From Phytoactinopolyspora limicola (lineage in GTDB: Bacteria; Actinomycetota; Actinomycetes; Jiangellales; Jiangellaceae), in contig NZ_JAAOEN010000004.1 of the NCBI RefSeq assembly GCF_011320225.1, forward strand, positions 428,973-492,972: a DNA stretch of 64,000 bases, given 5' to 3'. Shown here piece by piece: positions 5,769 to 24,847 of this stretch (its first letter is position 1; each line of letters starts with the position of its first letter). The position numbers and the translations under genes were made by a program. Below the pieces are notes generated by a model. It did no database searches. It saw only the letters and a program-made list of their open reading frames with translations, and had not been told where the DNA came from.

Positions 5769-8150
5769 ATGCGCATCGCGATCGTCGGCGGTGGCCCAGG
5801 GGGCCTGTACTTCGCCGCGCTTGCCAAGCGGCTCGACCCCCACCGCGAGATCACCGTCTGGGAACGCAACGCCGCTGACGACACGTTCGGCTTCGGAGTT
5901 GTCCTGTCCGACGAGACCCTCGGCGGCATCGAACACGCCGACCCGGTTGTCTTCGCGGCGATGCAGCGCGAGTTCGCCCGCTGGGACGACATAGACGTGC
6001 ACTACGGCGGCGAGGTGATCACCAGTGGCGGGCACGGGTTCGCCGCGATGAGCCGCAAGAAGCTCCTGGCCGTGCTGCAGGACCGCTGCCGCGAACTCGG
6101 GGTGACGGTCCATTTCGGCACCGAGGCGCCCGACGTCGACGAACTCGCCGCCACCCACGACCTGGTGATCGCCAGCGACGGCGCCAACTCGCGTATCCGC
6201 ACCCGCTACGCCGACGTCTTCCAGCCCGACCTCGAACAACGACAGTGCCGGTACATGTGGCTCGGCACCGATCTCGTCTTCGACTCGTTCACGTTTCACA
6301 TCGAGCAGACCCCGTACGGCGTCATGCAGATCCATGGGTATCCGTACGACGCACACGGCAGCACCTTCATCGTCGAAATGCACGACGACGTGTGGAAGGC
6401 CGCCGGACTCGACGCCACTCATGACGAGACCGCACCACCCGGGGTCAGCGACGAAGGCTCCATCACCCGCATCCGCGAACTGTTCGGGCACGTACTCGGC
6501 GGACACCACGTCTTCGCGAACAACTCTCGCTGGCTGACGTTCTCTACGGTGCGCAACGCCACCTGGCGTCACGGCAACATCGTGCTGCTCGGCGACGCCG
6601 CACACACCGCTCACTTCTCCATCGGCTCGGGCACCAAGCTGGCCATGGAAGACGCCCTAGCACTCGCCGCCTGCCTGCACGAACAGCCGGACGTCGACGC
6701 CGCCCTGACCGCCTACGAGGAGGAACGGCGTCCCGTCGTGCTCTCCACCCAGCGCGCCGCGCAGGCCAGCCTGGAATGGTTCGAGAACCTCGGCCAGTAC
6801 ACCCACCAGCACCCCGTCCAGTTCGCGTTCAACATCCTCACCCGGTCCCGCCGAGTCACCTACGACAACCTGCGGCTGCGTGACCCGGAGTACGTCGACG
6901 CCGCCGACGCGTGGTTCGCCCAGAGCGAGGTCGAGCGTGGTGTCGCCGCACCGCCGGCCGAGCCGCGCCCGCCGATGTTCCAGCCCTTCCGGCTACGCGA
7001 GCTACAGCTGAAGAACCGGGTCGTGGTGTCGGCCATGGATATGTACTCCGCCGACGACGGCCTGCCCAACGACTTCCACCTGGTACACCTGGGCAGCAAG
7101 GCCCTCGGCGGCGCCGGACTGGTGATGACCGAGATGGTGTGTGTGTCCGAGGCCGGGCGGATCACGCCGGGCTGCACCGGCCTGTACAACGACGAGCAGG
7201 AATCCGCGTGGACCCGGGTCACCGACTTCGTCCACCAGCGCACCACCGCCGCCATCGGCATCCAGCTCGGCCATTCCGGACGTAAAGGCTCCACCAAACT
7301 CATGTGGGAAGGCATCGACCAGCCGCTGCCGGACGGCAACTGGCCCCTCGTCGCGCCATCACCGTTGCCCTATTCGCCGGCCAACCAGACGCCGCGGGAG
7401 CTGAGCCACGCCGAGATGGCCGAGATCCGCGAGCAGTTCGTCGCCGCGGCCCGTCGTGCCGACAGCGCTGGGTTCGACCTCCTGGAGCTGCACTGCGCCC
7501 ATGGGTACCTGCTGTCGTCGTTCCTGTCGCCGCTGACCAACCAACGAAGCGACGAGTACGGCGGTTCGCTGGAGGCCCGGCTGCGCTACCCGTTGGAGGT
7601 GTTCGACGCCGTCCGCGCGGTGTGGCCGGAGCATAAGCCCATGTCGGTGCGGATCTCGGCCACCGACTGGCATCCGGGCGGCGTCGAGGCCGACGACGCC
7701 GTCGCGTTCGCCGAGGCGTTCGCCGCTCACGGTGCCGACGTCGTCGACGTGTCTACAGGCCAGGTCGTGAAGGAGGAGCGGCCGGCCTTCGGGCGTAGCT
7801 ACCAGACCCCGTTCGCCGATCGGATCCGCAACCGGGTCGACACCGCCGTCATGGCGGTGGGCGCCATCTCGTCGCCGGAAGACGTCAACGCGCTGATCCT
7901 CGCCGGCCGAGCCGACCTGTGCGCCCTCGGCCGCACCCACCTGTACAACCCGCACTGGACACTGCATGCCGCCGCGGACCAGGATTATTCGGGTCCGGGC
8001 GTGGACTGGCCGGTACAGTTCCGAGCCGGCCGGCGCAAACCCCAGGCCGGCCGCACCGACGGTCCGAAACCGCGCCTGGAGCTGATCCGCGACCAGGCCA
8101 CGGGCACCCGCCATGCCCGCTGGCGACCAACCGTGAAGGAGACGCCATGA
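5769..8150 (+). CDS. Fused FAD monooxygenase / old-yellow-enzyme protein (2-aminobenzoyl-CoA monooxygenase/reductase type)
   Basis: Bifunctional flavoprotein of 793 aa. Residues 1-390 are a group A FAD monooxygenase: GGGPGG at residues 7-12 and GDAAHTAHF for the FAD pyrophosphate and ribityl. Residues about 400-780 are an FMN-dependent old-yellow-enzyme barrel beginning FQPFRLRELQLKNRVVV, with HSGRKGS and HCAHGYLLSSFLSPL. This exact fusion is known from 2-aminobenzoyl-CoA monooxygenase/reductase, which hydroxylates and then reduces the ring of an aryl-CoA; databases also call it bifunctional salicylyl-CoA 5-hydroxylase/oxidoreductase. ATG 5769 is preceded by GGAG. Open frame extends upstream, but that is the antisense of the SDR gene. 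It overlaps the next gene by four bases. Confidence 0.85.
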   Translation: MRIAIVGGGPGGLYFAALAKRLDPHREITVWERNAADDTFGFGVVLSDETLGGIEHADPVVFAAMQREFARWDDIDVHYGGEVITSGGHGFAAMSRKKLLAVLQDRCRELGVTVHFGTEAPDVDELAATHDLVIASDGANSRIRTRYADVFQPDLEQRQCRYMWLGTDLVFDSFTFHIEQTPYGVMQIHGYPYDAHGSTFIVEMHDDVWKAAGLDATHDETAPPGVSDEGSITRIRELFGHVLGGHHVFANNSRWLTFSTVRNATWRHGNIVLLGDAAHTAHFSIGSGTKLAMEDALALAACLHEQPDVDAALTAYEEERRPVVLSTQRAAQASLEWFENLGQYTHQHPVQFAFNILTRSRRVTYDNLRLRDPEYVDAADAWFAQSEVERGVAAPPAEPRPPMFQPFRLRELQLKNRVVVSAMDMYSADDGLPNDFHLVHLGSKALGGAGLVMTEMVCVSEAGRITPGCTGLYNDEQESAWTRVTDFVHQRTTAAIGIQLGHSGRKGSTKLMWEGIDQPLPDGNWPLVAPSPLPYSPANQTPRELSHAEMAEIREQFVAAARRADSAGFDLLELHCAHGYLLSSFLSPLTNQRSDEYGGSLEARLRYPLEVFDAVRAVWPEHKPMSVRISATDWHPGGVEADDAVAFAEAFAAHGADVVDVSTGQVVKEERPAFGRSYQTPFADRIRNRVDTAVMAVGAISSPEDVNALILAGRADLCALGRTHLYNPHWTLHAAADQDYSGPGVDWPVQFRAGRRKPQAGRTDGPKPRLELIRDQATGTRHARWRPTVKETP

Positions 8151-8920
8151 CCGTGCTCGCCGACCTGCTCGACGCCGTCTCGTCCGACCGCATCCAGGTG
8201 CTCGACCTCACCGCTCCGCTCACCTCCCAGACACCAGTGCTCGTCCTACCGGAGCCGTTCGCCCAGACCAACACGTTCCAGCTGGAGGAGATCAGCCGGT
8301 ACGACGACCGGGGTCCGGCCTGGTATTGGAACAACATCAGCACTGGTGAACACACCGGCACCCATTTCGACGCCCCCAACCACTGGATCACCGGCAAGGA
8401 TCTCGACGACGTCTCCCAGGTCCCGGTGAAGCGGCTGGTGGCGCCGGCGGCCGTCATCGACGTCACCGAGCAGACGGCGGCGGATCCAGACTTCGTGCTG
8501 GAGGTGGAACACATCGAGGCATGGGAGCGGGAGCACGGAGCGCTGCCGGAGGGTGGTTGGCTGATGCTGCGTACCGGCTGGGACGCCCGCAGCCACAGCC
8601 AGGAGGAGTTCCTCAACGCCGACGAGAACGGTCCACACACCCCCGGCGTGAGTGTGAACTGCGCGAGGTGGCTGGCCGACAAAGCACCGGTTATCGGGTT
8701 GGGTGTGGAGACGGTCGGCACCGACGCCGGTGGCGCACACTCCTTCGACCCCGCCTTCCCGTGCCACGCGTTCCTGCTGGGCGCCGGCAAGTACGGGCTG
8801 ACGCAGTTGCAGAACCTGGCCCAGCTGCCGCCCACCGGGGCGGTCATCATCACCGCTCCGCTGCCGATCGTCGGCGGCTCGGGCAGCCCCACCCGGGTGC
8901 TCGCCCTCGTCGAACGCTAA
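8147..8920 (+). CDS. Cyclase-family metal-dependent hydrolase (kynurenine formamidase fold)
   Basis: Protein of 257 aa in the cyclase family, whose members hydrolyse amides, lactones or enol lactones (kynurenine formamidase, isatin hydrolase). The metal site HTGTHFDAPNH spans residues 69-79, the family signature. It is translationally coupled (ATGA) to the monooxygenase/reductase, implying it acts on that enzyme's product or on the precursor. If the pathway handles kynurenine or isatin-like compounds, this enzyme could generate the anthranilate-type acid; otherwise it may open a ring product. Both are inference. Confidence 0.8.
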   Translation: MTVLADLLDAVSSDRIQVLDLTAPLTSQTPVLVLPEPFAQTNTFQLEEISRYDDRGPAWYWNNISTGEHTGTHFDAPNHWITGKDLDDVSQVPVKRLVAPAAVIDVTEQTAADPDFVLEVEHIEAWEREHGALPEGGWLMLRTGWDARSHSQEEFLNADENGPHTPGVSVNCARWLADKAPVIGLGVETVGTDAGGAHSFDPAFPCHAFLLGAGKYGLTQLQNLAQLPPTGAVIITAPLPIVGGSGSPTRVLALVER

Positions 8921-8927
8921 CCCACCC

Positions 8928-8979: not shown

Positions 8980-8999
8980 CAGACGAGTCCGGAGGGGTT

Positions 9000-10649
9000 A
9001 TGAAAGTCGCGGAGGCCGTCGGGCAGGTGTTGGCCAGGCTGGGCGTCACCCATACGTTCGGTGTGGTCGGCAGCGGCAACTTCCACATCACCAACGCCCT
9101 GACGACGGGCGGTTCGCGCTTCGTCGCCGCTCGCCACGAAGGCGGCGCCGCCACGATGGCCGACGCCTACTCCCGGATGAGCGGGCAAGTGTCGGCGCTG
9201 ACCCTGCACCAAGGGTGCGGGCTGACCAACGCGATGACGGGTATCGCCGAAGCCGCCAAAAGCCGCACACCCATGCTGGTGCTCGCCGCCGAAACCACCA
9301 CGCCGTCGTCGAACTTCTACGTCGACCAGCCGACCCTGGCCCGGTCGGTGGGCGCCGAGAGCATCCGGATCGAATCGGCCGACACCGCCGTCGACGACAC
9401 CCTGCGGGCCTTCGGCATCGCCCGCGACCAGCGTCGTACCGTCGTCGTCAACCTCCCCCTGGACGTACAGGCGAGCCCGGCGCCGGAGCCGCTGCCCACC
9501 CCGTCATTAGTGCCCTCGCCACCTCCCCCGCCCCCGTCGGCCGGAGACGTCGCCGCACTCGCCGCGGCGTTGGCCGCCGCCCGTCGGCCCGTGATCATCG
9601 CCGGCCGAGGTGCCCGGCACGCCCGCACCGAACTGACCGATCTGGCCGCCGCGAGCGGCGCGCTAGTAGCGACGTCCGCGGTGGCCAGAGGGCTCTTCCA
9701 TGGCAACCCGTGGTCCCTGGACGTATCCGGAGGTTTCGCGTCGCCGCTGGCCGTCGAGCTGATCACCGACGCGGACCTGATCGTCGGGTTCGGCTGCGCC
9801 CTGAACATGTGGACCATGCGGCACGGCCACCTGATCGGACCTTCCGCGCGGGTGGTTCAGGTCGACGTCGAGGCCGCGGCGCTCGGCCGCAACCGCCCGG
9901 TGGATCTCGGCATCGTCGGAGACAGCGCGGCGGTCGCCGCGGCGGTCACCCATCAGGTGCTCGGCCAGCCCGGAGCCGACGCCGGATACCGCGACACCGC
10001 GCTACGCCGGCGGATCGGCCGCGAGCTGCGCTGGCGCGACGTACCCTACGACGACTGGGGCACCGGCACCGGCGACGACGCCCGGATCGACCCACGGACG
10101 TTGAGCATCGGCCTCGACGACGTACTGCCCACCGACCGGGTAGTCGCCGTCGACTCCGGCAACTTCATGGGCTACCCGAGTATGTATTTGGCAGTGCCCG
10201 ACGAGTTCGGATTCTGCTTCACCCAGGCATTCCAATCGATCGGGTTGGGGCTGGCCACAGCCATTGGCGCAGCGCTGGCACAACCGGACCGGCTCCCCGT
10301 TGCGGCATTGGGCGACGGCGGAGCGCTGATGGGCGCCGCGGAACTCGACACCGTCCGCCGGCTCGGTTTACCCATGGTGGTCGTGGTGTACAACGACGAC
10401 GCATACGGCGCCGAGGTGCATCACTTCAACGACGGTGCACCCCTGGACACCGTGACGTTCCCGGACACCGACATCGCCGCCGTGGGCGCCGGATACGGCT
10501 TCGACTCGGTGACCGTGCGGACGCCGACCGACCTGGAGACGGTGCGCCGGTGGGTGGGCGGACCTCGGGACCGGCCGTTGCTGGTGGATGCGAAAGTGGC
10601 GTCGCCACGCGGTTCGTGGTGGTTGGAGGAAGCCTTCCGCGGCCACTAA
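9000..10649 (+). CDS. Thiamine-diphosphate-dependent enzyme, acetolactate-synthase-like
   Basis: TPP enzyme of 549 aa with the three-domain layout: N-terminal PYR domain with the catalytic glutamate E47 in ARHEGGAA, a central domain after a proline-rich linker (about residues 160-180), and a C-terminal PP domain with the ThDP motif from GDGGALMG to VVVYND. ATG 9000 follows GGAGG. The family includes acetolactate synthase, benzoylformate decarboxylase, sulfoacetaldehyde acetyltransferase and cyclohexane-1,2-dione hydrolase. Given the dearomatising gene cluster upstream, C-C cleavage of a cyclic oxo-intermediate is an attractive but unproven role. Confidence 0.75.
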   Translation: MKVAEAVGQVLARLGVTHTFGVVGSGNFHITNALTTGGSRFVAARHEGGAATMADAYSRMSGQVSALTLHQGCGLTNAMTGIAEAAKSRTPMLVLAAETTTPSSNFYVDQPTLARSVGAESIRIESADTAVDDTLRAFGIARDQRRTVVVNLPLDVQASPAPEPLPTPSLVPSPPPPPPSAGDVAALAAALAAARRPVIIAGRGARHARTELTDLAAASGALVATSAVARGLFHGNPWSLDVSGGFASPLAVELITDADLIVGFGCALNMWTMRHGHLIGPSARVVQVDVEAAALGRNRPVDLGIVGDSAAVAAAVTHQVLGQPGADAGYRDTALRRRIGRELRWRDVPYDDWGTGTGDDARIDPRTLSIGLDDVLPTDRVVAVDSGNFMGYPSMYLAVPDEFGFCFTQAFQSIGLGLATAIGAALAQPDRLPVAALGDGGALMGAAELDTVRRLGLPMVVVVYNDDAYGAEVHHFNDGAPLDTVTFPDTDIAAVGAGYGFDSVTVRTPTDLETVRRWVGGPRDRPLLVDAKVASPRGSWWLEEAFRGH

Positions 10650-12414: not shown

Positions 12415-13221
12415 CTACTTGGCGCCGCCGAGGTAGAGGCGGGCGACGTCGTCGTTGTGCAACAGGTCGGGCCCTGGGCCCTCGAAACGGTTCTGCCCCA
12501 TGTCCAGCACGTAGGCATAATCGCTACTGGCCAGCGCCCGACGCGCGTTCTGTTCCACCATCAATACCGCGATCCCCGAGTCGGCGATCCGCCGGATCTC
12601 CCCGAACACCATACGTACGCTGTTCGGGTCGAGCCCGGCTGACGGTTCATCGAGCAGCAACACCCGTGGATCACCCATCAACGCCCGGGCCAGGGCGACC
12701 ACCTGGCGTTGGCCGCCAGACATCGTGCCGGCTTTCTGGCTTCGGCGCTCGGCCAGCAAGGGCAGCAGGTCGTAGATCCACGCCGCTCGCGTCGCCCGTT
12801 CTCGCGGCGACAGGTAACACCCCATCCGCAGGTTCTCCTCGGTGGTCAGCGACGGGAACACGTTGGCGACCTGCGGCACATAGCCGATTCCGGCGGCCAC
12901 CAGGTGATGCGTCGGCACCCGGGTCACGTCCCGGCCGTCCAGCAGCACGGTCCCGGCCCGCACGTCGACCAACCCGAATACCGCTTTGACCAGCGTCGAC
13001 TTACCGGCACCGTTGGGCCCGATGATGGACACCAGCTGCCCTGCGGCTACCCGCACATCACACTCGCGCACGACGTCGATCTCTTTGACGTAGCCGGCCC
13101 GCAGCCCAGCCACCTCGAACAGGCCACCCGTTTCGCCGTCCGCCGGTCCAACTCCCGCCGCCGGTCCAACTCCCGCCGCCCGCTCGGCTCCTGCCGCTGC
13201 ATCGACCTTCGGCTGCTCCAT
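12415..13221 (-). CDS. livF: Branched-chain/aromatic acid ABC transporter ATPase LivF-type
   Basis: Cytoplasmic ATP-binding subunit of 268 aa. Walker A GPNGAGKST, signature SGGQRQ and Walker B LLLDEPSAG are intact, and the C-terminal end resembles LivF (VMVEQNARRAL). About 35 N-terminal residues are an Ala/Gly/Pro-rich extension with a PAAGVG repeat not needed for function. ATG 13221 overlaps the livG stop by one base. It is last in livH-livM-livG-livF. Such importers carry branched-chain amino acids or, in catabolic clusters, aromatic acids; the latter is inferred here. Confidence 0.9.
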   Translation of the reverse strand: MEQPKVDAAAGAERAAGVGPAAGVGPADGETGGLFEVAGLRAGYVKEIDVVRECDVRVAAGQLVSIIGPNGAGKSTLVKAVFGLVDVRAGTVLLDGRDVTRVPTHHLVAAGIGYVPQVANVFPSLTTEENLRMGCYLSPRERATRAAWIYDLLPLLAERRSQKAGTMSGGQRQVVALARALMGDPRVLLLDEPSAGLDPNSVRMVFGEIRRIADSGIAVLMVEQNARRALASSDYAYVLDMGQNRFEGPGPDLLHNDDVARLYLGGAK

Positions 13222-14048
13222 CAGTCGTCCTCCGCGCCCAGGTACGCCTCGATGACCACCGGGTCGGCTTGGACCTCGGCCGGTGTCCCGCGGGCGATGG
13301 TGCGCCCGTTGGCCATCACGGTCACCGCGTCGCACACTCGCATCACCGCGTCCATGTCGTGCTCCACCAGCACGAACCCCATTCCTTCGTCGCGCAACGC
13401 CTGCACGTGGTCGAGCAGTTGCACGCCGAGCGTCGGGTTGACGCCGGCCAGTGGTTCGTCGAGGAGGAGCATCCGGGGCCGCAGCATCAGCGCGCGAGCC
13501 ATCTCCAGTAGTTTGCGCTGGCCGCCGGACAACTCGCCGGCGTAGCTGTCGCGGAGCCGGGTCAGGCCGAACCGTTCCAGCAGTTCGTCGGCCCGGGTGG
13601 TGTTGGCGCGTTCCTGCGCCCGCACGCGCCACGGCGCCAGCATCGCGCCGAACATGATCTCGCCCACCTGTCTCGGGGCGGCTACCCTCATGTTGTCCAG
13701 CACTGTCATTCGGGCCAGGGCCTTGGTGAGCTGGAAGGTACGCGCTACCCCGTGCCGGCACATGACGTGTGGTGGCTTTCCGGTGCGGTCCACTCCGTTC
13801 ACCCGGACGACGCCGGATCGGGGTCGGTAGAAGCCGCTGATGACGTTGAACAGGGACGTCTTCCCGGCGCCGTTGGGTCCGATGAGTGCGGTGATCCGGC
13901 CGAGTGGGGCGTCGAACGACGCACCGTCGACGGCGCGTAGCCCGCCGAAGGTCATGACGACGTCATCCGCGGTGAGGAAGGCTTCGGCCTCGGCGGCCGC
14001 CGTCGCACCCGCGTCCGGGTCCGTAGCGAGCTCAGTGTCGGCTTTCAC
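13221..14048 (-). CDS. livG: ABC transporter ATPase LivG-type
   Basis: Second ATP-binding subunit, 275 aa. It has Walker A GPNGAGKTS, signature SGGQRK, Walker B LLLDEPLAG and the H-loop segment LVEHDMD. The LivG-specific insertion between Walker A and the signature is present (PPHVMCRHGVARTFQ). The GTG start at 14048 lies inside the 3' end of livM, overlapping 17 bases, so translation is coupled. It pairs with LivF as the ATPase heterodimer. Confidence 0.9.
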   Translation of the reverse strand: MKADTELATDPDAGATAAAEAEAFLTADDVVMTFGGLRAVDGASFDAPLGRITALIGPNGAGKTSLFNVISGFYRPRSGVVRVNGVDRTGKPPHVMCRHGVARTFQLTKALARMTVLDNMRVAAPRQVGEIMFGAMLAPWRVRAQERANTTRADELLERFGLTRLRDSYAGELSGGQRKLLEMARALMLRPRMLLLDEPLAGVNPTLGVQLLDHVQALRDEGMGFVLVEHDMDAVMRVCDAVTVMANGRTIARGTPAEVQADPVVIEAYLGAEDD

Positions 14049-14958
14049 GCAGCAGCTCCTTCCGGTTGCCGAGTAGTCCTTGGGGCCGGAGCAGGACCAT
14101 CACCATGATCAGTAATCCGACGAGGATCAGCCGCAGGTAGGCGGCATCTTGGCTGGACATCCACTCGCTGGGAATAAACGTCGTCGCGTTGAACAGCGCC
14201 CAGAACAGCACCGATCCGACCACGGGGCCGAGCAGGCTGCCTCCTCCCCCGATGAGGATGATCACCCACGCGTAGATCGAGATCATCGGGAGGAACGCTT
14301 CCGGGGTGATGCTGCTCAGGTTCAGCGCGAAGAACACGCCGGCCAGGCCGGCGAGGGCGGCACCGAAGGCGAACGACTGCATCTTGTAGGCGACGACGTT
14401 CTTCCCGAGGGCCCGCATGGCGTCTTCGTCTTCCCGGATGCCTTTGAGCACCCGGCCCCAGGGGCTGCGGATCATGACGGTGACGACGAGCAGCACCAGC
14501 AGCACGACGATCCACACCGCGGCCATCAGGAATTCCAGGCCGGTCATCCACTGGAGGCCGAGGGTTTCACGTAGGCCGAAGAAGTCGTGGGAGTAGCCGC
14601 GGATGCCGGACGGGCCGCCGGTGAGGTCGACGACGCCCGGGCTGGAGTGCAAGACGATCCGGCAGATCTCGCCGACGGCGAGGGTGGTGATGGCCAGGTA
14701 GTCCGAGCGCAGCCGGATGGCTGGCAGGGCGACAAGGACACCGAGCACGGCGGCAGCCAGCATGGCCGCGGCCATCGCCGCCCACAGTGGCCAGTCGAAG
14801 ACGGAGACCAGGACCGCCATGGTGTAGGCGCCGACGGCGAAGAACGCGACCACCCCGAAGTTGAGCAGTCCGGTGTATCCCCAGTGGAGGTTGAGGCCCT
14901 GCGCGAGGAGCGCGAAGATCCCCGCCGAGACGAGGACGCTGATGATGTATCCGGTCAT
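14032..14958 (-). CDS. livM: ABC transporter permease LivM-type
   Basis: Inner-membrane permease of 308 aa starting MTGYIISVLVSAGIFALLAQ. It has about nine hydrophobic segments and the family EAA-like loop region SPWGRVLKGIREDEDAMRAL. The NFGVVAFFAVGAYT segment is characteristic of LivM. The start overlaps the livH stop by four bases (14955-14958). Confidence 0.9.
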   Translation of the reverse strand: MTGYIISVLVSAGIFALLAQGLNLHWGYTGLLNFGVVAFFAVGAYTMAVLVSVFDWPLWAAMAAAMLAAAVLGVLVALPAIRLRSDYLAITTLAVGEICRIVLHSSPGVVDLTGGPSGIRGYSHDFFGLRETLGLQWMTGLEFLMAAVWIVVLLVLLVVTVMIRSPWGRVLKGIREDEDAMRALGKNVVAYKMQSFAFGAALAGLAGVFFALNLSSITPEAFLPMISIYAWVIILIGGGGSLLGPVVGSVLFWALFNATTFIPSEWMSSQDAAYLRLILVGLLIMVMVLLRPQGLLGNRKELLRESRH

Positions 14959-15842
14959 ACGTATCGCCTCGCTCCGAACAGGCCCTGCGGGCGGATGACG
15001 AGGGCGACGACGAGGAACAGGAACACGAATGCCTGTTTCATCTCCGGCGGTAGCCCGAGCGCGGAATGGGTGACCAGTTCCTGGCCGACGCCGATGACGA
15101 GGCTGCCCACGGCGGCGCCGGCGGCGGTGCCGATGCCGCCGAGGACCACCGCGGCGAACACCAGCAGGATGATGTTCCAGCCCATGTTCGGGAAGATCCG
15201 GCCGCCGATGCCGAGCAGCACCCCGCCTACTCCCGTGAGTACACCTACGATCACCCAGGTGATGGCGCTGGTGCGGGCTACGTCGACGCCGCTGGCCCGG
15301 GCCAGGTCCATGTTGTCCGCCATGGCCCGCATCGCGGTGCCGATCCGGGTCCATTTCAGCAGAGCAGCCAGTCCGATCATGCACACTGCCCCACCGGCGA
15401 CGACGGTCAGTCCTTCGCGGGTCATGTAGACCGGGCCGATGGCCAGCTCCCGGGTGGGTGGCGCGTATTGGTGTGTCTCCTCGCCGAAAATCAGGAAGAG
15501 CACATGTCGAACGACGTAGGCGAGGCCGACGGACAGCAGCAGGAGGCTGAAGTTGCTGCCGCCCCGGGCACGCATCCGCCGCCAGAGTGACAGCTCGAGT
15601 CCGAGCGCGATCAACGCCGACGCGACGGCCGCGACGATCAGGGCGATGACTAGCGGTAGGCCGGCATTGACGCAGACGAGCGCGGCGAACGCCGCGACGG
15701 TCAACAGATCTCCGTGGGCGACGTTGATCATACGTAGCACGCTCATGATCAGCGACAGGCCCACTGCCGCGACCGCGAGGGCAGCCGCCACGACGACGCC
15801 GTCGGCCACCAGTTGTAGGGCTTCGTCCACTGGCGCCTCCAT
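14955..15842 (-). CDS. livH: ABC transporter permease LivH-type
   Basis: First gene of the permease/ATPase operon, 295 aa. The signature GLSLIMSVLRMINVAHGDLL is the LivH N-terminal motif, and RIGTAMRAMADNMDLA is the cytoplasmic coupling loop. ATG 15842 gives the usual length; an in-frame ATG at 15869 would add nine residues and neither has a strong ribosome site. The gene diverges from livK, and the shared gap carries a palindromic operator candidate. Confidence 0.88.
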   Translation of the reverse strand: MEAPVDEALQLVADGVVVAAALAVAAVGLSLIMSVLRMINVAHGDLLTVAAFAALVCVNAGLPLVIALIVAAVASALIALGLELSLWRRMRARGGSNFSLLLLSVGLAYVVRHVLFLIFGEETHQYAPPTRELAIGPVYMTREGLTVVAGGAVCMIGLAALLKWTRIGTAMRAMADNMDLARASGVDVARTSAITWVIVGVLTGVGGVLLGIGGRIFPNMGWNIILLVFAAVVLGGIGTAAGAAVGSLVIGVGQELVTHSALGLPPEMKQAFVFLFLVVALVIRPQGLFGARRYV

Positions 15843-15875
15843 TCGGTCTGATGCGACGACACGGTACATCGTTTG

Positions 15876-15983: not shown

Positions 15984-17300
15984 ATGAAAAAAACATGTAC
16001 GGCGAAAGGGAACCGCGGCCGCCGAAACGGGCTCGCCCGCGCGATACTGCTGGCGGCTGCCGCCGGGCTGGTCGTGACCGCATGCGGGGCTGACGACGGG
16101 TCCGGCAACACCACGGGCACCACTGACGACGCCGCAGGCGACGGCGCGGTCACCGACGGAGCCGGCGGCGAAGGCGGATCCGCGCTGGCCATCGGCGGCG
16201 TGCTGCCGTTGAGCGGCGAGTCCGCGGAGTTCGGCGGCTCGATGGCCCGCGGTATGGAACTCGCCGCCGAGCAGATCAACACCTGTGGTGTGCTCGACGT
16301 GAGCCTGCACATCGAGGACGACGGCACCGACGAGCAGACCGCCATCGGCGCCATCCAGAAACTGGTCAATGTCGACGACGTGCCGGCGATCGTCGGCTCG
16401 GTGGCCAGCCGGATCACGCTGGCCATCGCCGACACCGCGATCCAGAACCAGCGGGTATTGGTGGCTCCCGGCTCGTCCAGTCCGGTGATCACCGACTACG
16501 ACGACGATGGCTACCTGTTCCGGACGCTGCCCTCGGACCTGGACCAAGCGCCGGCCATCGCCGAGGTGGCCGTCGCCCGGGAGTTCCGGCAGGTCAACGT
16601 CGTAGCGTTGAACGACGATTACGGCAAAGGGCTTAGCCAGGCGTTCAGCGACAGCTTCGAGGCGTCCGGCGGCAGCGTCGGCACCGTCCGCCTGATCGAC
16701 CCCAAGGGTGTCGACTTCGCCGCGGACGTACGCGCCGCACTCCGTGACGATCCGGACGCCTTGCTGCTGGCCGTGTTCCCGGAGACCGGGAGCGCGGTGT
16801 TGCGGGCGCTGGCCCAGCAGGGCGCCATCGGCGAGACCCCGCTGCTGATGATGAACGGCCTCGCCGTGGCCGGCTTCCCCGAGCAGGCAGGGGTCGATCT
16901 CGACGGCGAGGTGGGAGTCCGTCCCACCAGCGGCGGTCCGGGTGACGACTACTTCACCGAACAGTTCCAGGAGAAGTTCGACACCGCTCCCGGCTACGCG
17001 ACGTCCAACGCCTACGACGCCACCATGCTGATCGCGTTGGCTGCCGCGGCCGGAGAACCCACCGGCCCGGCCATCCGCGACCATCTCCGCGACGTCTCCG
17101 CCGGGGGCACCCAGTACACCCCCGATCAGATCTGTGCCGCTCTGGAGGCCGCGGCCGCAGGTGAGGACGTCGACTACACCGGCGCCAGCAGCAACGCCGA
17201 ACTCGACGAGAACGGCGATCTGGCCACGCCGGTGTTCGACGAATGGACGTTCGAGGACGGCACTCCGGTCCGCCTCCGGGTACTGGAGCTGGGTACGTGA
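15984..17300 (+). CDS. livK: ABC transporter substrate-binding lipoprotein, LivK-type
   Basis: Type I periplasmic-binding-fold lipoprotein of 438 aa. A basic N-terminus, hydrophobic core and lipobox VVTAC (cysteine near residue 34) direct lipid anchoring outside the cell. The mature part begins with a Gly/Asp-rich linker, then IGGVLPLSGESAEFGGSMARG, typical of Leu/Ile/Val-binding proteins. ATG 15984 lies five bases after AGGGAG; a GTG at 15978 is less likely. The stop overlaps the next start (GTGA). It probably captures the substrate for LivFGMH encoded divergently. Confidence 0.9.
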   Translation: MKKTCTAKGNRGRRNGLARAILLAAAAGLVVTACGADDGSGNTTGTTDDAAGDGAVTDGAGGEGGSALAIGGVLPLSGESAEFGGSMARGMELAAEQINTCGVLDVSLHIEDDGTDEQTAIGAIQKLVNVDDVPAIVGSVASRITLAIADTAIQNQRVLVAPGSSSPVITDYDDDGYLFRTLPSDLDQAPAIAEVAVAREFRQVNVVALNDDYGKGLSQAFSDSFEASGGSVGTVRLIDPKGVDFAADVRAALRDDPDALLLAVFPETGSAVLRALAQQGAIGETPLLMMNGLAVAGFPEQAGVDLDGEVGVRPTSGGPGDDYFTEQFQEKFDTAPGYATSNAYDATMLIALAAAAGEPTGPAIRDHLRDVSAGGTQYTPDQICAALEAAAAGEDVDYTGASSNAELDENGDLATPVFDEWTFEDGTPVRLRVLELGT

Positions 17301-17791
17301 GCGCCGGCGCCACCACCGACCTGCTGGTCTTCGAGTTCGTCGACCACGGCGTCGCGGTCCGGGCCCGGCTGAACACCGCGGGGGCGCCGAACACCTGCGC
17401 CGTCGTCGGCGGAATCGCCAGCACCGAACCGGCCGTCCGGGCCTACCACGCCATCTTCAGTGGCCGCCAGCTCGGCATCCACGTCGCGCCGGAGGTCGCC
17501 GGAGAGATTGACGGCGCCCGCGAGGTGCCGCCGGAGTGCGCCACGGCGTTCCCGGCCCCGGGCGACGTGTTGTGGCAGTACTGCCCACCAGGCAAGATGG
17601 ACGGCGGCCCGGAGATCTTCGACCTGGCGTTGTGTTACGGGCGAGACACCCGCATTCTCATGCCGTGGGGGTTCTCCCCCGCCAACCGGTTCGCCCAGGT
17701 GGTAGACGAGGATCTACCGTCGCTGGCGAAGCTCGGCGCCACCATGATCGAGACCGGCGCCGAGAACGTCCGCATCCGGAGCGTCGCGTGA
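17297..17791 (+). CDS. DUF3830 (cyclophilin-like fold) protein
   Basis: Protein of 164 aa resembling DUF3830 proteins, a small beta-barrel cyclophilin-like family of unknown function. Recognisable pieces are VRARLNTAGAPNTCAVV near the N-terminus, ATAFPAPGDVLWQY in the middle and RILMPWGFSPANRFAQV near the end. GTG 17297 overlaps the livK stop by four bases. DUF3830 genes often occur beside transport and amide/amino-acid catabolic genes, but no activity is established. Here it is locked into an operon with a binding protein and a PLP enzyme. Confidence 0.7.
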   Translation: MSAGATTDLLVFEFVDHGVAVRARLNTAGAPNTCAVVGGIASTEPAVRAYHAIFSGRQLGIHVAPEVAGEIDGAREVPPECATAFPAPGDVLWQYCPPGKMDGGPEIFDLALCYGRDTRILMPWGFSPANRFAQVVDEDLPSLAKLGATMIETGAENVRIRSVA

Positions 17792-18204
17792 CGGCGGGAC
17801 CACCGGTGAGCCCCGACGCCGGCTGGTCGGTCATGTTCACCGCGGCGGCGACCAACAACTGGTACGACGCGGATGGCGACGAGAAGCGCCAGGTCCTCGA
17901 CCGGCTGCTCGACGTGCTGGCCAGCTGGCTGAACACACCGGGATGCCGGCACGTCGCCTCGTTCGACGACGACCTGCTCATGGTGGGCGACCCGCGGCTG
18001 TGGGCGGTACCGTCGATCTACATCCTGATGGACGTGGAGACCGCCGACGTCGTCCCCGCCATGGTGGACCTGTTCCGCCACGGCGACGTCCGGCTCGACC
18101 GCTACTTCACCCTCCAGGCCCGGCTCGGCCGGCCGTTCTGGCCGATCGAGCGGGTCCGGAACCGGGCCGACCGTCCATCTCCCAAGGAGGAAAGATCACC
18201 GTGA
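17788..18204 (+). CDS. Conserved-looking small protein of unknown function
   Basis: Predicted 138-aa cytoplasmic protein; I do not recognise the family with confidence. It has an amphipathic helix region (EKRQVLDRLLDVLASWL), a beta-rich middle and the C-terminal FTLQARLGRPFWPIERV. Size and alternation of strands and helices would fit a ferredoxin-like dimeric alpha/beta-barrel fold (darcynin-like), but this is weak. It is coupled on both sides by four-base GTGA overlaps with the DUF3830 and PLP genes, so it is certainly expressed with them. Confidence 0.65.
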   Translation: MTAGPPVSPDAGWSVMFTAAATNNWYDADGDEKRQVLDRLLDVLASWLNTPGCRHVASFDDDLLMVGDPRLWAVPSIYILMDVETADVVPAMVDLFRHGDVRLDRYFTLQARLGRPFWPIERVRNRADRPSPKEERSP

Positions 18205-19382
18205 CCAGCGCACCACGCGCCACCCCCACACCCCCGACGACCACCCTGGCCGACGGCATCCGACACCGGTTCCCGATCTTCGAGCGCCGCACGTACGTCA
18301 ACTCGTGTTCGCACGGCGCCTTGTCCGACAGCGTCCGCGCCGCATACGACGGCTACCTGGCCGGGCTCGAAGATCAGGGTGCACCGTGGGACACCTGGGT
18401 GGGTGAACAGGAGCGGGTGCGCGCCCTGGTAGCTCGGCTCCTTGGCGCCGACTCGGCCGAGGTGGCGGTGACGACGTCGGCCTCGGCCGGCCTGAACGCG
18501 GTGGCCAGCGCCTTCGACTTCAGCGGACCGCGCGACACCGTCGTCGTCACCGACGCCGAGTTTCCCACCGTCGGCCAGATCTGGCATGCCACCGAGCGAC
18601 GGGGCGCCCGGGTGGTGCACGTTCCACGAGCGGCGGACCGCACGTTGCCCATCGAACACTTCGAGAAGGTGATCGACGACCGCACCGCCGTGGTCTCGGT
18701 GACCGACGTGTGTTACCAAGATGGCGCCCGGACCGATCTGACCCCGGTGATCGAGCTGGCCCACGAGCGCGGCGCCCGGGTCGTCGCCGATGTGTTCCAG
18801 TCCGCGGGGACGGTGCCGTTGGACGTTGGCGCGCTGGGCGCCGATTTCGTCGTCGGCGGTATGCAGAAGTACCTGCTTGGTGCACCCGGCGCGGCGTATC
18901 TGTACGCGTCGGCCGAGCGCACTGCCGACTACGTCCCGGTACACACCGGGTGGTTCGCGGCGGAGGACATCTTCGCGATGAAGGTGGACGGGTACGAGCC
19001 GGCGCCGGACGCCCGGCGGTTCGAGTCGGGTACACCCCCGGTGCCCTGCCTGTATGCCGCTTCGGCCGGCCTGGAGTTACTGCTCGACGTCGGGATCGAA
19101 GCGACGGCCGCGCACCTGGATCAGCTGACGGCGCAGCTACGGTCCGGGATAGCGGGTATCGGCGGCACCGTCGTCACCCCGCCGCCGCCGGCCAGCGCGG
19201 CCATGGTGGCGGTGGCGGCGTCCGACGACCACGCGTACGTGGCCGCGCTCGCGGAGGAACGTGTCGTCGTCAGCTGCCGGGCTGGCAACGTCCGGATCTC
19301 GCCCCACTGCTACAACACCCCGGGCGACATCGACACCGTGCTCGCCGCCCTCTACAAGCACCGGCACCTCCTCCGGCGTTAA
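18201..19382 (+). CDS. Class-V aminotransferase-fold PLP enzyme (second copy)
   Basis: PLP enzyme of 393 aa related to isopenicillin-N epimerase-like and cysteine desulfurase-like proteins. The cofactor lysine is in VVGGMQKYLLG, preceded by the PLP-aspartate segment VVADVFQSAG; the C-terminal VRISPHCYNTPGDID is a family hallmark. GTG 18201 follows AAGGAGG (18184-18190). It shares fold but little local sequence with the enzyme at 3494 (QKYL against GHKW), so they probably act on different substrates. Last gene of the livK operon; a family D hairpin follows. Confidence 0.75.
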   Translation: MTSAPRATPTPPTTTLADGIRHRFPIFERRTYVNSCSHGALSDSVRAAYDGYLAGLEDQGAPWDTWVGEQERVRALVARLLGADSAEVAVTTSASAGLNAVASAFDFSGPRDTVVVTDAEFPTVGQIWHATERRGARVVHVPRAADRTLPIEHFEKVIDDRTAVVSVTDVCYQDGARTDLTPVIELAHERGARVVADVFQSAGTVPLDVGALGADFVVGGMQKYLLGAPGAAYLYASAERTADYVPVHTGWFAAEDIFAMKVDGYEPAPDARRFESGTPPVPCLYAASAGLELLLDVGIEATAAHLDQLTAQLRSGIAGIGGTVVTPPPPASAAMVAVAASDDHAYVAALAEERVVVSCRAGNVRISPHCYNTPGDIDTVLAALYKHRHLLRR

Positions 19383-19602: not shown

Positions 19603-21687
19603 ATGAGCCAGGAGACCCACCAGCTCCGGGTGCTGTGGAACGCGCGGTCCATCGCCGTGATCGGCGCCACGGACCGGGCCGGCGCCCTCGGCCGGCTGCC
19701 CGTCGAGTTCCTGCTCGCCCACGGATACCGCGGCCGCATAGTGCCCGTGAACCCCAAGGGCGGCACCGTGTGCGGGTTGCCGGTCAGCCCACAGCTCGAC
19801 GACGCGGTCGACCTCGCGCTCGTGATGGTGCCCGCGCCGGCCGCACCCGCCGTCATCCGCCGCTGCGGGGAGGTCGGAGTACCCGTCGCTATCGTCATGT
19901 CCAGCGGATTCGCCGAGACGGGCGCTGACGGCGCGAAGCTACAGCGCCTGCTCGTCGACGCCGCTCAGGAGGCCGGCGTCCGGGTGGTGGGCCCCAACTG
20001 CATCGGAGCCGTGGGGTTCGGCCCCGGCCAGACCGCCACGTTCAGCCCGCTGTTCGGAGCCCCGCAGCTGCCCCGGGTCCCCGGCCGGATCGGCTTCGCC
20101 ACCCAGTCCGGTGCACTCGGCTACGGCACGGTCAGCCTCGCCCTCGAACGTGGCCTCGGCCTGCACGCCGCGGTCAACACCGGCAACGAGGCCGACGTCA
20201 CCACCCTCGACGTCCTCGAGGCGCTGGCGGCCGAGCCCGACGTCGACGCCATGCTGGCCTACACCGAGACCCTCTCCGACGGTCCGGCACTTCGCCGACT
20301 GGCTGCGACGGGCAAGCCGCTGGCCATCCTGAAGGCAGGAACCAGCGACGCGGGCTCCCGGGCGGCCGCCAGCCACACCGGTGCGCTGGCCACCAGCGAC
20401 CGCGTAGTAGACGCCACGCTGCGGCAACTCGGCATCGCCCGTGCTCACGACATCGACGACCTCCTGGACCTCGGTACCGCGTTCACCAGCCCATACCGGC
20501 CCCGCGGGCCTCGAGTGGCCGTTGTGACGACGTCTGGGGGCTCGGGCATCCTGGCCGCCGACGCGATCGACGCCACCGGTGGCGAACTCACCCTGGCCGG
20601 CCTCGCTCCGGCGACGACGGCCGCGCTGGAGGAGATCGTGCCCGCGTTCGGCTCCACCGCCAACCCGGTAGACGTCACCGCCGCCGTCATGAGCGATCGG
20701 GAATTATTGCAACGCGCACTCGACGTGGTCGTGGACGACGATGGCGTCGACGCGGTGCTCGCCTGTTTCTGCGTGCTCACCGGCGATCAGGTGATGGACA
20801 TCGTCAGCGCACTCGGCGACGCCGCGGCCCGGTCCGGCGTACCCGTAGCCGTCGCCCGCACCGGCGCGGACTTCCTCGCCCCCGACGCGAGCGAGGCGCT
20901 GCGCAAGGCCGGCCTCCCCGTCTACCCCACCCCGGGCCGGGCGGTGCGGGCGCTGGCCGGTTTATGGCGTACCTCTCGGCCCCGCATCGACGTTCCTCCC
21001 GAGCCGCCGTCTGATGCCGTCGCCGGGGCGGCGCCGCAGCCTCCAGTGGTCAGCGACGAACCCCGCCTCAAGGCGCTGCTGCGGGGCCGAGGCATGCCGG
21101 TTCCGCCGGGCCGCCTGGTCGACGGGCCCGACGACGCGGTGGCCGCCGTCGCCGAGGTCGGTGGACGCGCCGTCGCGAAAGCCGTCGTCCCCGACCTGAT
21201 CCACAAGAGCGAGGCCGGCGGCGTCATCGTCGGCGTGACCACCGAGACCGCGCCCGCCGCCTACGATCAGGTCGCCGCCCTCGGCGGGGAGGTTCTGATC
21301 GAAGAGATGGTGGCCGCCGAACACGGACTGGAGGTCCTGGTGGGGATCGCACCCAGCCCACTCGGGCAGGTGCTCACGGTGGGCCTCGGCGGGGTGCTCA
21401 CCGAGGTTCTCGACGACGCCGCCAGCCGCCTGCTACCGATCACCCGCGGCGACGCCACCGAGATGATCTCCGAGCTGCGTGGGGCACGGCTGCTCGCCGG
21501 CTACCGGGGCGGGCCGGCGCTGGACACCACCGCGTTGCTCGATCTGATCGTGGCCGTGTCCGAGCTGACCTACGGCTGGCGCACCGGGTTCGAGCTGGAC
21601 CTCAATCCGGTGCTGGTGCTCCCGGACGGGGTGCGGGTGCTCGACGCCGCCTACGTCCCACCCCCACCCGTGGCCGGTGATCATTAG
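19603..21687 (+). CDS. ADP-forming acyl-CoA synthetase (NDP-forming), fused alpha-beta type
   Basis: Single-chain acyl-CoA synthetase of 694 aa: CoA-binding Rossmann domain (IAVIGATDRAGALGRLP), succinyl-CoA-ligase-like domains with the phospho-histidine H258 in AASHTGALATSD, and a C-terminal ATP-grasp domain (from about residue 480). The family makes acetyl-, aryl- or other acyl-CoA from acid, CoA and ATP, reversibly releasing ADP. No ribosome site precedes ATG 19603; CTTGACGG at 19567-19574 may be part of a promoter. It stands before the second AMP-forming ligase and the mutase and may recover energy from, or reactivate, a pathway acid. Confidence 0.8.
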   Translation: MSQETHQLRVLWNARSIAVIGATDRAGALGRLPVEFLLAHGYRGRIVPVNPKGGTVCGLPVSPQLDDAVDLALVMVPAPAAPAVIRRCGEVGVPVAIVMSSGFAETGADGAKLQRLLVDAAQEAGVRVVGPNCIGAVGFGPGQTATFSPLFGAPQLPRVPGRIGFATQSGALGYGTVSLALERGLGLHAAVNTGNEADVTTLDVLEALAAEPDVDAMLAYTETLSDGPALRRLAATGKPLAILKAGTSDAGSRAAASHTGALATSDRVVDATLRQLGIARAHDIDDLLDLGTAFTSPYRPRGPRVAVVTTSGGSGILAADAIDATGGELTLAGLAPATTAALEEIVPAFGSTANPVDVTAAVMSDRELLQRALDVVVDDDGVDAVLACFCVLTGDQVMDIVSALGDAAARSGVPVAVARTGADFLAPDASEALRKAGLPVYPTPGRAVRALAGLWRTSRPRIDVPPEPPSDAVAGAAPQPPVVSDEPRLKALLRGRGMPVPPGRLVDGPDDAVAAVAEVGGRAVAKAVVPDLIHKSEAGGVIVGVTTETAPAAYDQVAALGGEVLIEEMVAAEHGLEVLVGIAPSPLGQVLTVGLGGVLTEVLDDAASRLLPITRGDATEMISELRGARLLAGYRGGPALDTTALLDLIVAVSELTYGWRTGFELDLNPVLVLPDGVRVLDAAYVPPPPVAGDH

Positions 21688-21764
21688 CAACATCGAGGCG
21701 CTATAGCAGCAGGATTCCGCTAACGATCACCGAGAAGGTGACCGATCGAGGAGGCAACGCAGAC

Positions 21765-23336
21765 GTGGACATCGCGACCCTGGTAGATCGGGCGGCGCGC
21801 CGGTTCGGCGAACATCTCGCCGTGGAGGGCCCGGATGCCGCTGGCCACTGGCAGCGGCTGACCTTCGCCGGGCTCGGCGACCGGGTGTTACGGCTGGCCG
21901 CCGGGCTACGCCGGATGGGCCTACAGCCGGGAGACCGGGTCCTCGACCTGCAATCGAACTCCACCACGTACTTGGAGACCGACCTCGCTATCCGAGCCGC
22001 CGGGCTGGTCCGGGTGGCGCTGAACTACCGGTTGCATCCGGAGGACTGGGCCCGGATCGCCGCCGATTGCGGCGCCACGACGTTGATCTACGACACCCGG
22101 TTCGCCGGCGACGCCGCTGGGCTGGCCAGCCAGCTCGATCGGGTGCTCGTCGTCGGCAGCGACAGCGCTCCCGGGACCCCGCTGGATTCCCTGCTCGACG
22201 CTCCGGCCCCTGCGGTCGGCACGGCCAGCGACCCCGACGATCTGTGCGGGTTGCACTACTCGTCGGGCACGACGGGCCATCCCAAAGGGGCGCAGCGCAC
22301 CCATCGCAACTGGGTGGCCGGCACCGTCAACATGACCCACGACGTCCTCGGCGGCCCCCCGTCGGCCACCGACGTGTACTGTCACGCCGGCCCTATCACC
22401 CACACGTCCGGGCTCTTCGTGCTGCCGTTCCTCGTCGCCGGGGCCCGACAGGTGATCCTGCCGAAGTGGGACGCCGACCAGTTCGCCGACGCCATCACCC
22501 GGTACGGCGTCACCCACACCGCGCTGGTGCCCACGATGGTGTCGCGGCTGCTGGCACTGGACGACGACACGCTGGCGCCGGCTCGGCGCCGGCTGCGAGT
22601 GCTGGGTTACGCGGGTGCGCCGATGCCGCCGGAGGTGATCCGGGCCGCACACTCGCGCATCACCCCCAACCTGGTGCAGTACTACGGCCTGGTGGAAGCG
22701 ATCCCACCGGTCACGATCCTCGACGCCGCCGACCACGCCACCGGTCTCGACGCCGAACCGGACCTGCTGTCCAGCGCCGGACGCCCAGCGCTCGGCGTCG
22801 AACTGCGCGTCGTCGACGAATCCGGCCAGCCGGTACCCGACGGCGACATCGGCGAAGTGATCACCCGCGGCGACCACGTGATGCGTGGATACTGGAACGG
22901 CTCCGGCCGTACCGACCTGGGCAAAGCCGTCGTCGACGGTTGGCTGCATACCGGTGACCTCGGCCGGCTGGATGGCTCAGGGCGGCTGTGGCTGGTCGAC
23001 CGGGTCGGCGACATGATCATCACCGGTGGGTACAACGTGTATCCACGGGAAGTGGAGGACGTGGTGGCCGAAGTACCAGGTGTCACACAGGTGGCCGTCG
23101 TCGGCGTCACCGATGCCGACTGGGGACAACGCGTCGTCGCCCTCTACACGGCCGACGGAGACGTCGACGAGAACACCGTCACCACCCACTGCCGAGACCG
23201 GCTAGCGTCGTACAAACGCCCCAAGCAGGCGATCCGCGTCACGTCGTTCCCGCTGAACAGCACCCAGAAGATCGCCAAGAAGGTCCTGCGGGAGCGGCTG
23301 GAGCTGGGTGAGGAGCTACCCCGATGGAACGCCTGA
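21765..23336 (+). CDS. AMP-forming acyl-CoA synthetase
   Basis: ANL-family ligase of 523 aa. P-loop SSGTTGHPKG, the TGD hinge (HTGDLGRLDGSG) and the C-terminal catalytic lysine in STQKIAKK are present. GTG 21765 has GGAGG ten bases upstream; a GTG at 21738 in the same frame lacks one. Sequence resembles medium-chain/aryl acyl-CoA synthetases, and substrate specificity cannot be told. The last 13 bases overlap the mutase gene, so both are co-translated and the ligase probably makes the mutase substrate. Confidence 0.82.
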   Translation: MDIATLVDRAARRFGEHLAVEGPDAAGHWQRLTFAGLGDRVLRLAAGLRRMGLQPGDRVLDLQSNSTTYLETDLAIRAAGLVRVALNYRLHPEDWARIAADCGATTLIYDTRFAGDAAGLASQLDRVLVVGSDSAPGTPLDSLLDAPAPAVGTASDPDDLCGLHYSSGTTGHPKGAQRTHRNWVAGTVNMTHDVLGGPPSATDVYCHAGPITHTSGLFVLPFLVAGARQVILPKWDADQFADAITRYGVTHTALVPTMVSRLLALDDDTLAPARRRLRVLGYAGAPMPPEVIRAAHSRITPNLVQYYGLVEAIPPVTILDAADHATGLDAEPDLLSSAGRPALGVELRVVDESGQPVPDGDIGEVITRGDHVMRGYWNGSGRTDLGKAVVDGWLHTGDLGRLDGSGRLWLVDRVGDMIITGGYNVYPREVEDVVAEVPGVTQVAVVGVTDADWGQRVVALYTADGDVDENTVTTHCRDRLASYKRPKQAIRVTSFPLNSTQKIAKKVLRERLELGEELPRWNA

Positions 23337-24847
23337 GAACCGACTACGCCCCCGACGACGCCGAACGCCCGGGTGAGTACCCCTACACCCGCGGCATCAG
23401 CGCCGAACCCCGAGTGTGGACGATGGGCCAGTACGCCGGGTTCGGTTCGGCGGCGGAGTCGAACAAACGGTTTCGCACCCTCCTCGACGCCGGCGGCACC
23501 GGATTCTCCGTCGCACTCGACCTACCGACCCAGATGGGCCTGGACTCCGACGACCCGCAGGCCGCCGGCGAGGTAGGCCGGGTGGGCGTCGCGATCGACT
23601 CCCTGGCCGACATCGAGACCCTCATGGACGGCATCCCGTTGGAGGAGATCTCGCAGGTCCGCACGACCGCCAACTCCATCGGCTACATCTGGGCGGCCTT
23701 GTTCCTTGCGCTCGCCCGACGCCGCGGAGTGGACCCGAACGAGTTCGGGATGTTCATCCAGAACGACGTCCTCAAGGAATACATCGCTCGCGGCACCCAG
23801 ATGTACCCGCCGGAACCCTCGCTGCGGCTCGCCGTCGACACCATCGAACACTGCGCCACACACGTGCCGCGGTGGGTGCCGCTGGCGATGAGCGGATACC
23901 ACATCCGCGAATCCGGCGCCGACGCCGTACAAGAGGTGGCGTGGACGTTCGCCAACGCCCGCGCCTATCTCGACGAAGCCGTCCGCCGCGGAGTGTCGAT
24001 CGACGACGTCGCCCCGACCCTGTTCACCTTCCTGTCGGTGACCATCGACGCCCTGCCGGAGGTGGCCAAGCTGCGCGCCGCCCGGCGGGTGTGGGCGCGG
24101 CTGATGCGAGAGGTCTACGGCGCGGCGGACCCGCGGTCGATGCAGCTGCGAATCTTCGCGTTCACCGCGGGATCGACGTTCACCGCTCAGCAGCCAATGA
24201 ACAACGTCGTTCGAGCCTCGGTGGAAGCGACAGTCGCGGCGCTGGCAGGGGTGCAGACGTTACACGTGTCCGCGTATGACGAGGCCCTAGGCGTGCCGAC
24301 GGAGGCCGCCGCCACCTTGGCACTGCGCACCCAGCAAGTAGTGGCCTACGAAACCGGGCTCACCGACACCGTGGATCCGCTGGCCGGTTCCTACGCGGTG
24401 GAAGCCCTCACCGACGACCTAGAGCGCCGCATGTGGGACACGTTAACCGACGTCGAACGCCGAGGCGGGGCGCTGCGATGCATCGAGTCGGGTGTCTTCG
24501 CCGACCAACTGTCCGAATCGGCCTACCGGTACGCGCAGGAGGTCGACCGCGGCGAACGCGTCGTGGTGGGTGTCAACCGGTTCCCCGCACCCGCCGACCC
24601 CCTCGAAGTCTTCACCCCGGATCCCGCTACCGAGGCGGCGCAGGTCACCGCGGTGCGCGACGTCCGTTCCCGTCGGGATTCCGTCGCATGGCACGCTGCG
24701 ATGCGACGGCTGCGGGAGACCGCGGCGACCGGAGATAACATCGTGCCGGCCTGCGTCGAGGCGGTGTCGGCGTATGCCACGATCGGTGAGATCTGCGCCG
24801 TGCTCAAAGACGTCCACGGCAGCTGGGTCCCCACCACCACCTACTAA
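23324..24847 (+). CDS. B12-dependent acyl-CoA mutase, large (catalytic) subunit only
   Basis: TIM-barrel subunit of the methylmalonyl-/isobutyryl-CoA mutase family, 507 aa, without the C-terminal B12-binding domain of full-length methylmalonyl-CoA mutase. Family features: YPYTRG near the N-terminus, WTMGQYAGFGSAAESN, THVPRWVPLAMSGYHIRESGA with the catalytic histidine, and FTAQQPMNNVVRASVEA. The substrate loop between TRG and WT is about three residues shorter than in known methylmalonyl- or isobutyryl-CoA mutases and lacks the usual PTMY. An Arg sits where methylmalonyl-CoA mutase binds the free carboxylate (YIARGTQMYPPEPS). No small B12-binding subunit is encoded in the window. Confidence 0.82.
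   Translation: MERLRTDYAPDDAERPGEYPYTRGISAEPRVWTMGQYAGFGSAAESNKRFRTLLDAGGTGFSVALDLPTQMGLDSDDPQAAGEVGRVGVAIDSLADIETLMDGIPLEEISQVRTTANSIGYIWAALFLALARRRGVDPNEFGMFIQNDVLKEYIARGTQMYPPEPSLRLAVDTIEHCATHVPRWVPLAMSGYHIRESGADAVQEVAWTFANARAYLDEAVRRGVSIDDVAPTLFTFLSVTIDALPEVAKLRAARRVWARLMREVYGAADPRSMQLRIFAFTAGSTFTAQQPMNNVVRASVEATVAALAGVQTLHVSAYDEALGVPTEAAATLALRTQQVVAYETGLTDTVDPLAGSYAVEALTDDLERRMWDTLTDVERRGGALRCIESGVFADQLSESAYRYAQEVDRGERVVVGVNRFPAPADPLEVFTPDPATEAAQVTAVRDVRSRRDSVAWHAAMRRLRETAATGDNIVPACVEAVSAYATIGEICAVLKDVHGSWVPTTTY

Follow-up and report, generated by a model that had tools for sequence, protein, structure and literature searches.

Indole-3-acetate (IAA) is catabolised aerobically by products of the iac locus, and known loci for IAA catabolism include a gene for IacB, whose role in the iac pathway is described as unclear (PMC7225977). 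In the iad-type degradation of IAA the route runs through isatin to anthranilate (PMC9613470), and anthranilate degradation by 2-aminobenzoyl-CoA monooxygenase/reductase (ACMR) is a further described system. Here we compare with these a four-gene operon in a 64,000-nucleotide stretch (hereafter the window) of the Phytoactinopolyspora limicola genome (contig NZ_JAAOEN010000004.1), in which livK is followed by genes for a DUF3830 protein, an IacB-like protein and V1, a kynureninase-like class-V pyridoxal phosphate (PLP) enzyme. Like the iac locus, the window has an IacB-family protein, a nearby short-chain dehydrogenase/reductase (SDR) and a putative catabolic island for a nitrogen-containing aromatic, but neither an iacA-type acyl-CoA dehydrogenase nor a Rieske dioxygenase was found in it (tblastn, 1e-4). 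With the iad-type route it has in common an isatin-hydrolase-like cyclase and anthranilate-level enzymes, whereas the iad marker enzymes were not identified here, and DUF3830 and class-V proteins are not described in the available part of that source. With the 2-aminobenzoyl-CoA route it shares an ACMR-type fused enzyme and a benzoate-CoA-type ligase, to which it adds Liv uptake, DUF3830, IacB-like and kynureninase-like genes.

We propose, with a probability of about one half, that an aerobic catabolic island degrades an indole- or tryptophan-derived aminoaromatic through anthranilate and 2-aminobenzoyl-CoA, and that the operon accounts for the import and first conversion of this compound. The genes of the operon are the following.

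15984..17300, plus strand: livK, Liv-type substrate-binding lipoprotein, 438 residues (Pfam Peripla_BP_6, 129.4 bits; lipobox VTAC)
17297..17791, plus strand: DUF3830 protein, 164 residues, cyclophilin-like domain family (PF12903, 77.3 bits)
17788..18204, plus strand: IacB-like protein, 138 residues, predicted ferredoxin-like alpha+beta fold (29-45% identity to the IacB family)
18201..19382, plus strand: class-V PLP enzyme V1, kynureninase-like, 393 residues (Aminotran_5, 152.7 bits; 1qz9, 98 bits)

The module is wider than the initial annotation had it, with livHMGF (12415-15866) lying next to livK and divergent from it. Homologous to annotated Liv sets, these four genes supply two permeases and two ATPases which, with the Peripla_BP_6 substrate-binding protein, make up a Liv-type ATP-binding cassette (ABC) importer.

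12415..13200 (start approximate), minus strand: livF ATPase (open reading frame; 44-48% to livF of loci L010/L011)
13221..14048, minus strand: livG ATPase (open reading frame; 47% to livG of loci L010/L011)
14032..14958 (start approximate), minus strand: livM permease (open reading frame; 33-38% to livM of loci L010/L011/L044)
14955..15866 (start approximate), minus strand: livH permease, divergent from livK (open reading frame; 31% to livH of L010/L011)

The operon is part of a catabolic island (232-24847), from which four further enzymes enter the proposed pathway.

232..1872, plus strand: AMP-forming benzoate/2-aminobenzoate-CoA-type ligase (TIGR02262, 356 bits against a cut-off of 375; 57% to the Deinococcus ligase)
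5769..8150, plus strand: ACMR, bifunctional salicylyl-CoA 5-hydroxylase/2-aminobenzoyl-CoA monooxygenase-reductase type (NF006101, 1265 bits against an equivalog cut-off of 1078)
8138..8920, plus strand: isatin-hydrolase-like cyclase (isatin hydrolase 5nmp, 278 bits; HTGTHFDAPNH, WYW)
9000..10649, plus strand: thiamine pyrophosphate (TPP)-dependent enzyme, cyclase-paired elsewhere (Pfam TPP N/M/C; 58-61% to cyclase-linked TPP enzymes)

The frame of the pathway is drawn from conserved gene content. Read from sequence, the substrate, the order of reactions, the roles of the DUF3830 and IacB-like proteins and the activity of each enzyme would be as follows. LivK and LivHMGF would import a nitrogen-containing aromatic, most likely indole- or tryptophan-derived. 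V1, with the DUF3830 and IacB-like proteins as enzymes or accessory factors, would convert it to an intermediate at the level of isatin, isatinate or anthranilate, and the cyclase and the TPP enzyme would finish the conversion towards anthranilate. The ligase would then make 2-aminobenzoyl-CoA, which ACMR would hydroxylate and reduce.

The core of the island recurs together with class-V and DUF3830 genes in Deinococcus. In the 220-248 kb region of a D. psychrotolerans plasmid, a segment of ~22 kb next to Liv parts holds matches at 50% to ACMR, 57% to the ligase, 61% to both the cyclase and the TPP enzyme, 34% to class V and 32% to DUF3830; in D. KNUC1210 a class V-DAO-DUF3830 set is convergent with a TPP-cyclase pair. 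In Tsukamurella, genes for ACMR (65%), the ligase (55%) and the cyclase (59%) lie beside one for an indolepyruvate oxidoreductase, and the cyclase-TPP pair is also present in Rhodococcus. Among 30 control stretches of 20 kb each, the cyclase was matched once, and there was no match to ACMR, the TPP enzyme, class V, DUF3830, livK or the ligase.

The cyclase itself can be compared with isatin hydrolase, whose signatures are the metal motif HxG[T/A]HxDxPxH, a WXW/FXW pocket and GLQC/GLAS (PMC6117287): it keeps the first as HTGTHFDAPNH and the second as WYW.

V1 matches kynureninase (1qz9, 98 bits), resembles SufS-like proteins as well, and falls below the kynureninase TIGR01814 equivalog cut-off (84.2 against 246.4 bits). 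Like kynureninase it is a fold-type I PLP enzyme, with the GWF motif and the equivalents of S36, F129, D201, K227 and W256 (1qz9 numbering), but it has Q at H204, Q at Y226 and V at D132. Judged by these alignments, V1 is a kynureninase-like protein that lacks three of kynureninase's residues. Its nearest relative in the tree (support 86/92) is a Novosphingobium protein, encoded on a plasmid that carries a 57% cyclase ~16 kb away. Homologues in Micromonospora and Nonomuraea (L126, L127) have a tryptophan-dioxygenase-like gene on either side; the Micromonospora homologue is also near a nitric oxide synthase gene, and the Nonomuraea one is 4 kb away from a 64% cyclase. V1 was rejected as the housekeeping kynureninase, since a canonical KynU gene adjoins a tryptophan dioxygenase (TDO) gene on C1 of the same genome.

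The second protein belongs to DUF3830 (PF12903) well above the Pfam gathering cut-off (77.3 against 26 bits). A profile of 21 DUF3830 sequences matched 3kop (2.9e-48), 3x27 (2e-5) and 2nnz (2.5e-4), with weak matches to cyclophilins and to other Pictet-Spenglerases; we take 3x27 to be McbB, a cucumopine-synthase-type enzyme. When aligned by hhalign with the N-domains of cucumopine-synthase-type proteins from Ri/Ti plasmids, Paraburkholderia and one actinomycete, DUF3830 gave a probability of 97% over 125 columns, and it is thus homologous to the cyclophilin-like domain of these Pictet-Spenglerases. The catalytic residue of McbB is Glu97 (PMC9366743), at the position of which the window protein has Arg119 (hhalign). 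The helical Cucumopine_C domain, which in cucumopine synthase and McbB is C-terminal, was not found in the 164-residue protein by a domain scan, in which DUF3830 was the sole domain matched. Because of this arginine and the missing domain we do not call the protein a Pictet-Spenglerase. Viral relatives were sought for an alignment and none was found, and a single-sequence AlphaFold model was unusable, with a predicted local distance difference test score (pLDDT) of 33.

The link between DUF3830 and cucumopine-synthase-type proteins is already present in annotation, since NCBI names the Ri/Ti plasmid genes 'DUF3830 family protein'. The two such plasmid proteins scanned nevertheless fell below the PF12903 cut-off. 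The two-domain genes of Ri/Ti plasmids and Paraburkholderia adjoin genes for an ABC transporter, hutH (histidine ammonia-lyase), hutC and hydantoinase, and this neighbourhood suggests that they serve opine use. On pRi_26-59 (L183), alongside genes for hutH, hutC and hydantoinase, two divergent genes each join a Cucumopine_C to a cyclophilin-like domain, the order in one being the reverse of that in the other; the Ri/Ti loci L184 and L187 have the same layout. The literature searched contained neither a mention of DUF3830 nor a paper on cucumopine catabolism enzymes.

The third protein, described initially as of unknown function, turned out to have a family although no Pfam or NCBIfam model matched it. 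Searches of plasmids with tblastn returned relatives, including one annotated as IacB beside an iac-type set; pairwise identities to IacB family members are 29-45%, and the invariant DDD..MVG, Y and RxG positions are present (alignments, blastp). An orphan status for the gene was rejected on these relatives, and a 143-residue gene of locus L010 was discarded as a relative, having a weak DUF4440 match instead. An AlphaFold model (pLDDT 76) has a beta-alpha-beta-beta-alpha-beta arrangement, with middling matches to ClcF (Z 8.9) and YgiN that would say no more than that the fold is ferredoxin-like. A single scan over named genomes (84,980), anchored on IacB, gave seven loci. In four Alphaproteobacteria the gene order is SDR, IacB-like, Liv genes, and in two short contigs a TRAP transporter is the neighbour. 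Of 394 class-level genomes a single one gave a strong match, and no IacB-like gene was found in the close relatives sampled. In locus L044 (7127-10330) genes for pyridoxamine-pyruvate transaminase and pyridoxal 4-dehydrogenase immediately precede the IacB-like gene, and one for 4-pyridoxolactonase is close by; all three score above their equivalog cut-offs, which raises the possibility of a role for an IacB-family protein in vitamin B6 degradation. The repeated company of SDRs and transporters, and once of vitamin B6 catabolism, points to a broader function of IacB, accessory or enzymatic, that is not confined to IAA. The window has such an SDR:

4848..5645, minus strand: SDR dehydrogenase (28-37% to IacB-linked SDRs)

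It had been suggested initially that the strict coupling of the four genes marks a defined uptake-and-conversion module, which gene-order and gene-neighbourhood comparisons should reveal elsewhere. The overlaps on which this relied are real: all three junctions read GTGA (17297-17300, 17788-17791 and 18201-18204), a GGAG-type ribosome-binding site lies 6-10 nt 5' of every downstream start, within the preceding gene, and livK could alternatively start at an in-frame GTG at 15978. We nevertheless do not accept them as a sign of special coupling, because overlaps of this kind are frequent in this genome: a crude gene caller applied to the window and two other stretches gave 31 pairs of close genes on the same strand, 8 of them with a possible four-base NTGA overlap. 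A module remains plausible and has partial support, in that subsets and pairs of the genes recur; the exact order livK-DUF3830-IacB-class V, however, was found nowhere else in the one scan of named genomes, anchored on IacB, and in the DUF3830 loci sampled. Within 10 kb of 69 DUF3830 loci sampled by Pfam (40 actinobacterial and 29 alphaproteobacterial), class V and IacB-like genes were each found at none and livK at 3; the 30 controls for this test gave 1, 0 and 1 for class V, IacB-like and livK, respectively. In contrast, among the nine plasmid records closest to the window DUF3830 protein (two from one strain), Liv genes adjoin DUF3830 in the Mesorhizobium, two Rhizobium and Caballeronia loci examined, and class V adjoins it in three Deinococcus and the Caballeronia loci; one Rhizobium locus has neither. 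Since the Pfam sample is near-empty and the closest plasmid relatives are positive, the association is a trait of the DUF3830 subfamily near the window protein, not of DUF3830 at large. Rhizobial plasmids and one alphaproteobacterial genome (L010, L163, L195, L196) share a Liv-DUF3830-TIGR04076-aldo/keto reductase (AKR) locus, the order in the three plasmids being GntR-DUF3830-TIGR04076-AKR-NTF2-like-livK.

Several observations weigh against an indole- or tryptophan-derived substrate passing through isatin and anthranilate. Three kynureninase residues are replaced in V1, and the genome has its canonical TDO-KynU pair elsewhere. In the cyclase the third isatin hydrolase signature reads GLTQ, and no isatin-making enzyme (IAA or indole oxygenase) was found in the window, which also has neither of the two iac-type enzymes sought. 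IacB-like proteins gave no match in the Deinococcus islands and occur in a vitamin B6 degradation locus as well. Salicylyl-CoA, too, is a substrate of ACMR-type enzymes.

An unlikely alternative is a kynurenine route, with LivK importing kynurenine or formylkynurenine, the cyclase taking the part of a kynurenine formamidase and V1, a divergent kynureninase additional to the canonical one, yielding anthranilate directly. The alignment of V1 with 1qz9, in which S36, F129, D201, K227 and GWF are common to both, would fit this, as would the TDO-like neighbours of V1 homologues and the anthranilate-CoA enzymes of the island. Yet V1 reaches 84 bits where TIGR01814 demands 246, lacks the H204, Y226 and D132 equivalents and coexists with a canonical KynU, and the cyclase scores 278 bits with isatin hydrolase against 28.5 with arylformamidase TIGR03035 (cut-off 223). 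We also consider it improbable that the operon is a mosaic of unrelated accessory genes gathered around a Liv transporter and acting in different reactions. The uniqueness of the strict order, the near-empty neighbourhoods of the loci sampled across the whole Pfam family and the absence of IacB-like genes from sampled close relatives speak for such a mosaic; the recurrence of gene subsets in distant phyla and the tight arrangement in one operon with three overlaps speak against it.

The relationship of DUF3830 to cucumopine-synthase-type N-domains raises a very remote alternative, in which the substrate is an opine-like amino-acid adduct, DUF3830 cleaves it by a reverse Pictet-Spengler-type or related C-C/C-N reaction and V1 acts on the aromatic amino acid so released. 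The two-domain genes of Ri/Ti plasmids and Paraburkholderia beside transporter, histidine ammonia-lyase and hydantoinase genes are in keeping with it, and DAO, with RidA in one island, is found among DUF3830 neighbours, but the window protein has Arg119 at the catalytic position and is without Cucumopine_C. Returning to the indole-to-anthranilate pathway, we hold as a speculative extension, itself rather unlikely, that DUF3830 is a catabolic enzyme family of common ancestry with Pictet-Spenglerase domains and that it acts with IacB and a kynureninase-like enzyme in a hitherto undescribed route by which an indole-derived compound is taken up and cleaved to anthranilate, the core of which would be common to Actinomycetota and Deinococcota. 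With the proposed pathway, DUF3830 and IacB, both without an assigned function, gain a concrete setting for testing, and DUF3830 is tied by sequence to an enzyme superfamily whose members form amino-acid adducts and, on opine plasmids, probably cleave them as well.

The remaining genes noted include an NhaC-type antiporter gene within 232-10649 and the following, the last three of which possibly belong to the same island.

3494..4678, plus strand: second class-V PLP enzyme, V2 (Aminotran_5, 109.8 bits)
19603..21687, plus strand: ADP-forming acyl-CoA ligase (Pfam)
21738..23336, plus strand: AMP-forming acyl-CoA ligase (Pfam)
23324..24847, plus strand: methylmalonyl-CoA-mutase-type large subunit (MM_CoA_mutase, 586 bits)

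The two acyl-CoA ligases thus precede the mutase-type subunit, beside which none of the listed open reading frames was recognised as a small B12-binding subunit. Perfect or near-perfect hairpins TGATCATG...CATGATCA recur in the genome, at 19493-19544, 42379-42428 and 59983-60032 of the window (3 against 0 expected in shuffles), at 109-158 of L131 and at 18359-18408 of L013; one of them lies 3' of V1 and another at the end of the canonical KynU gene.

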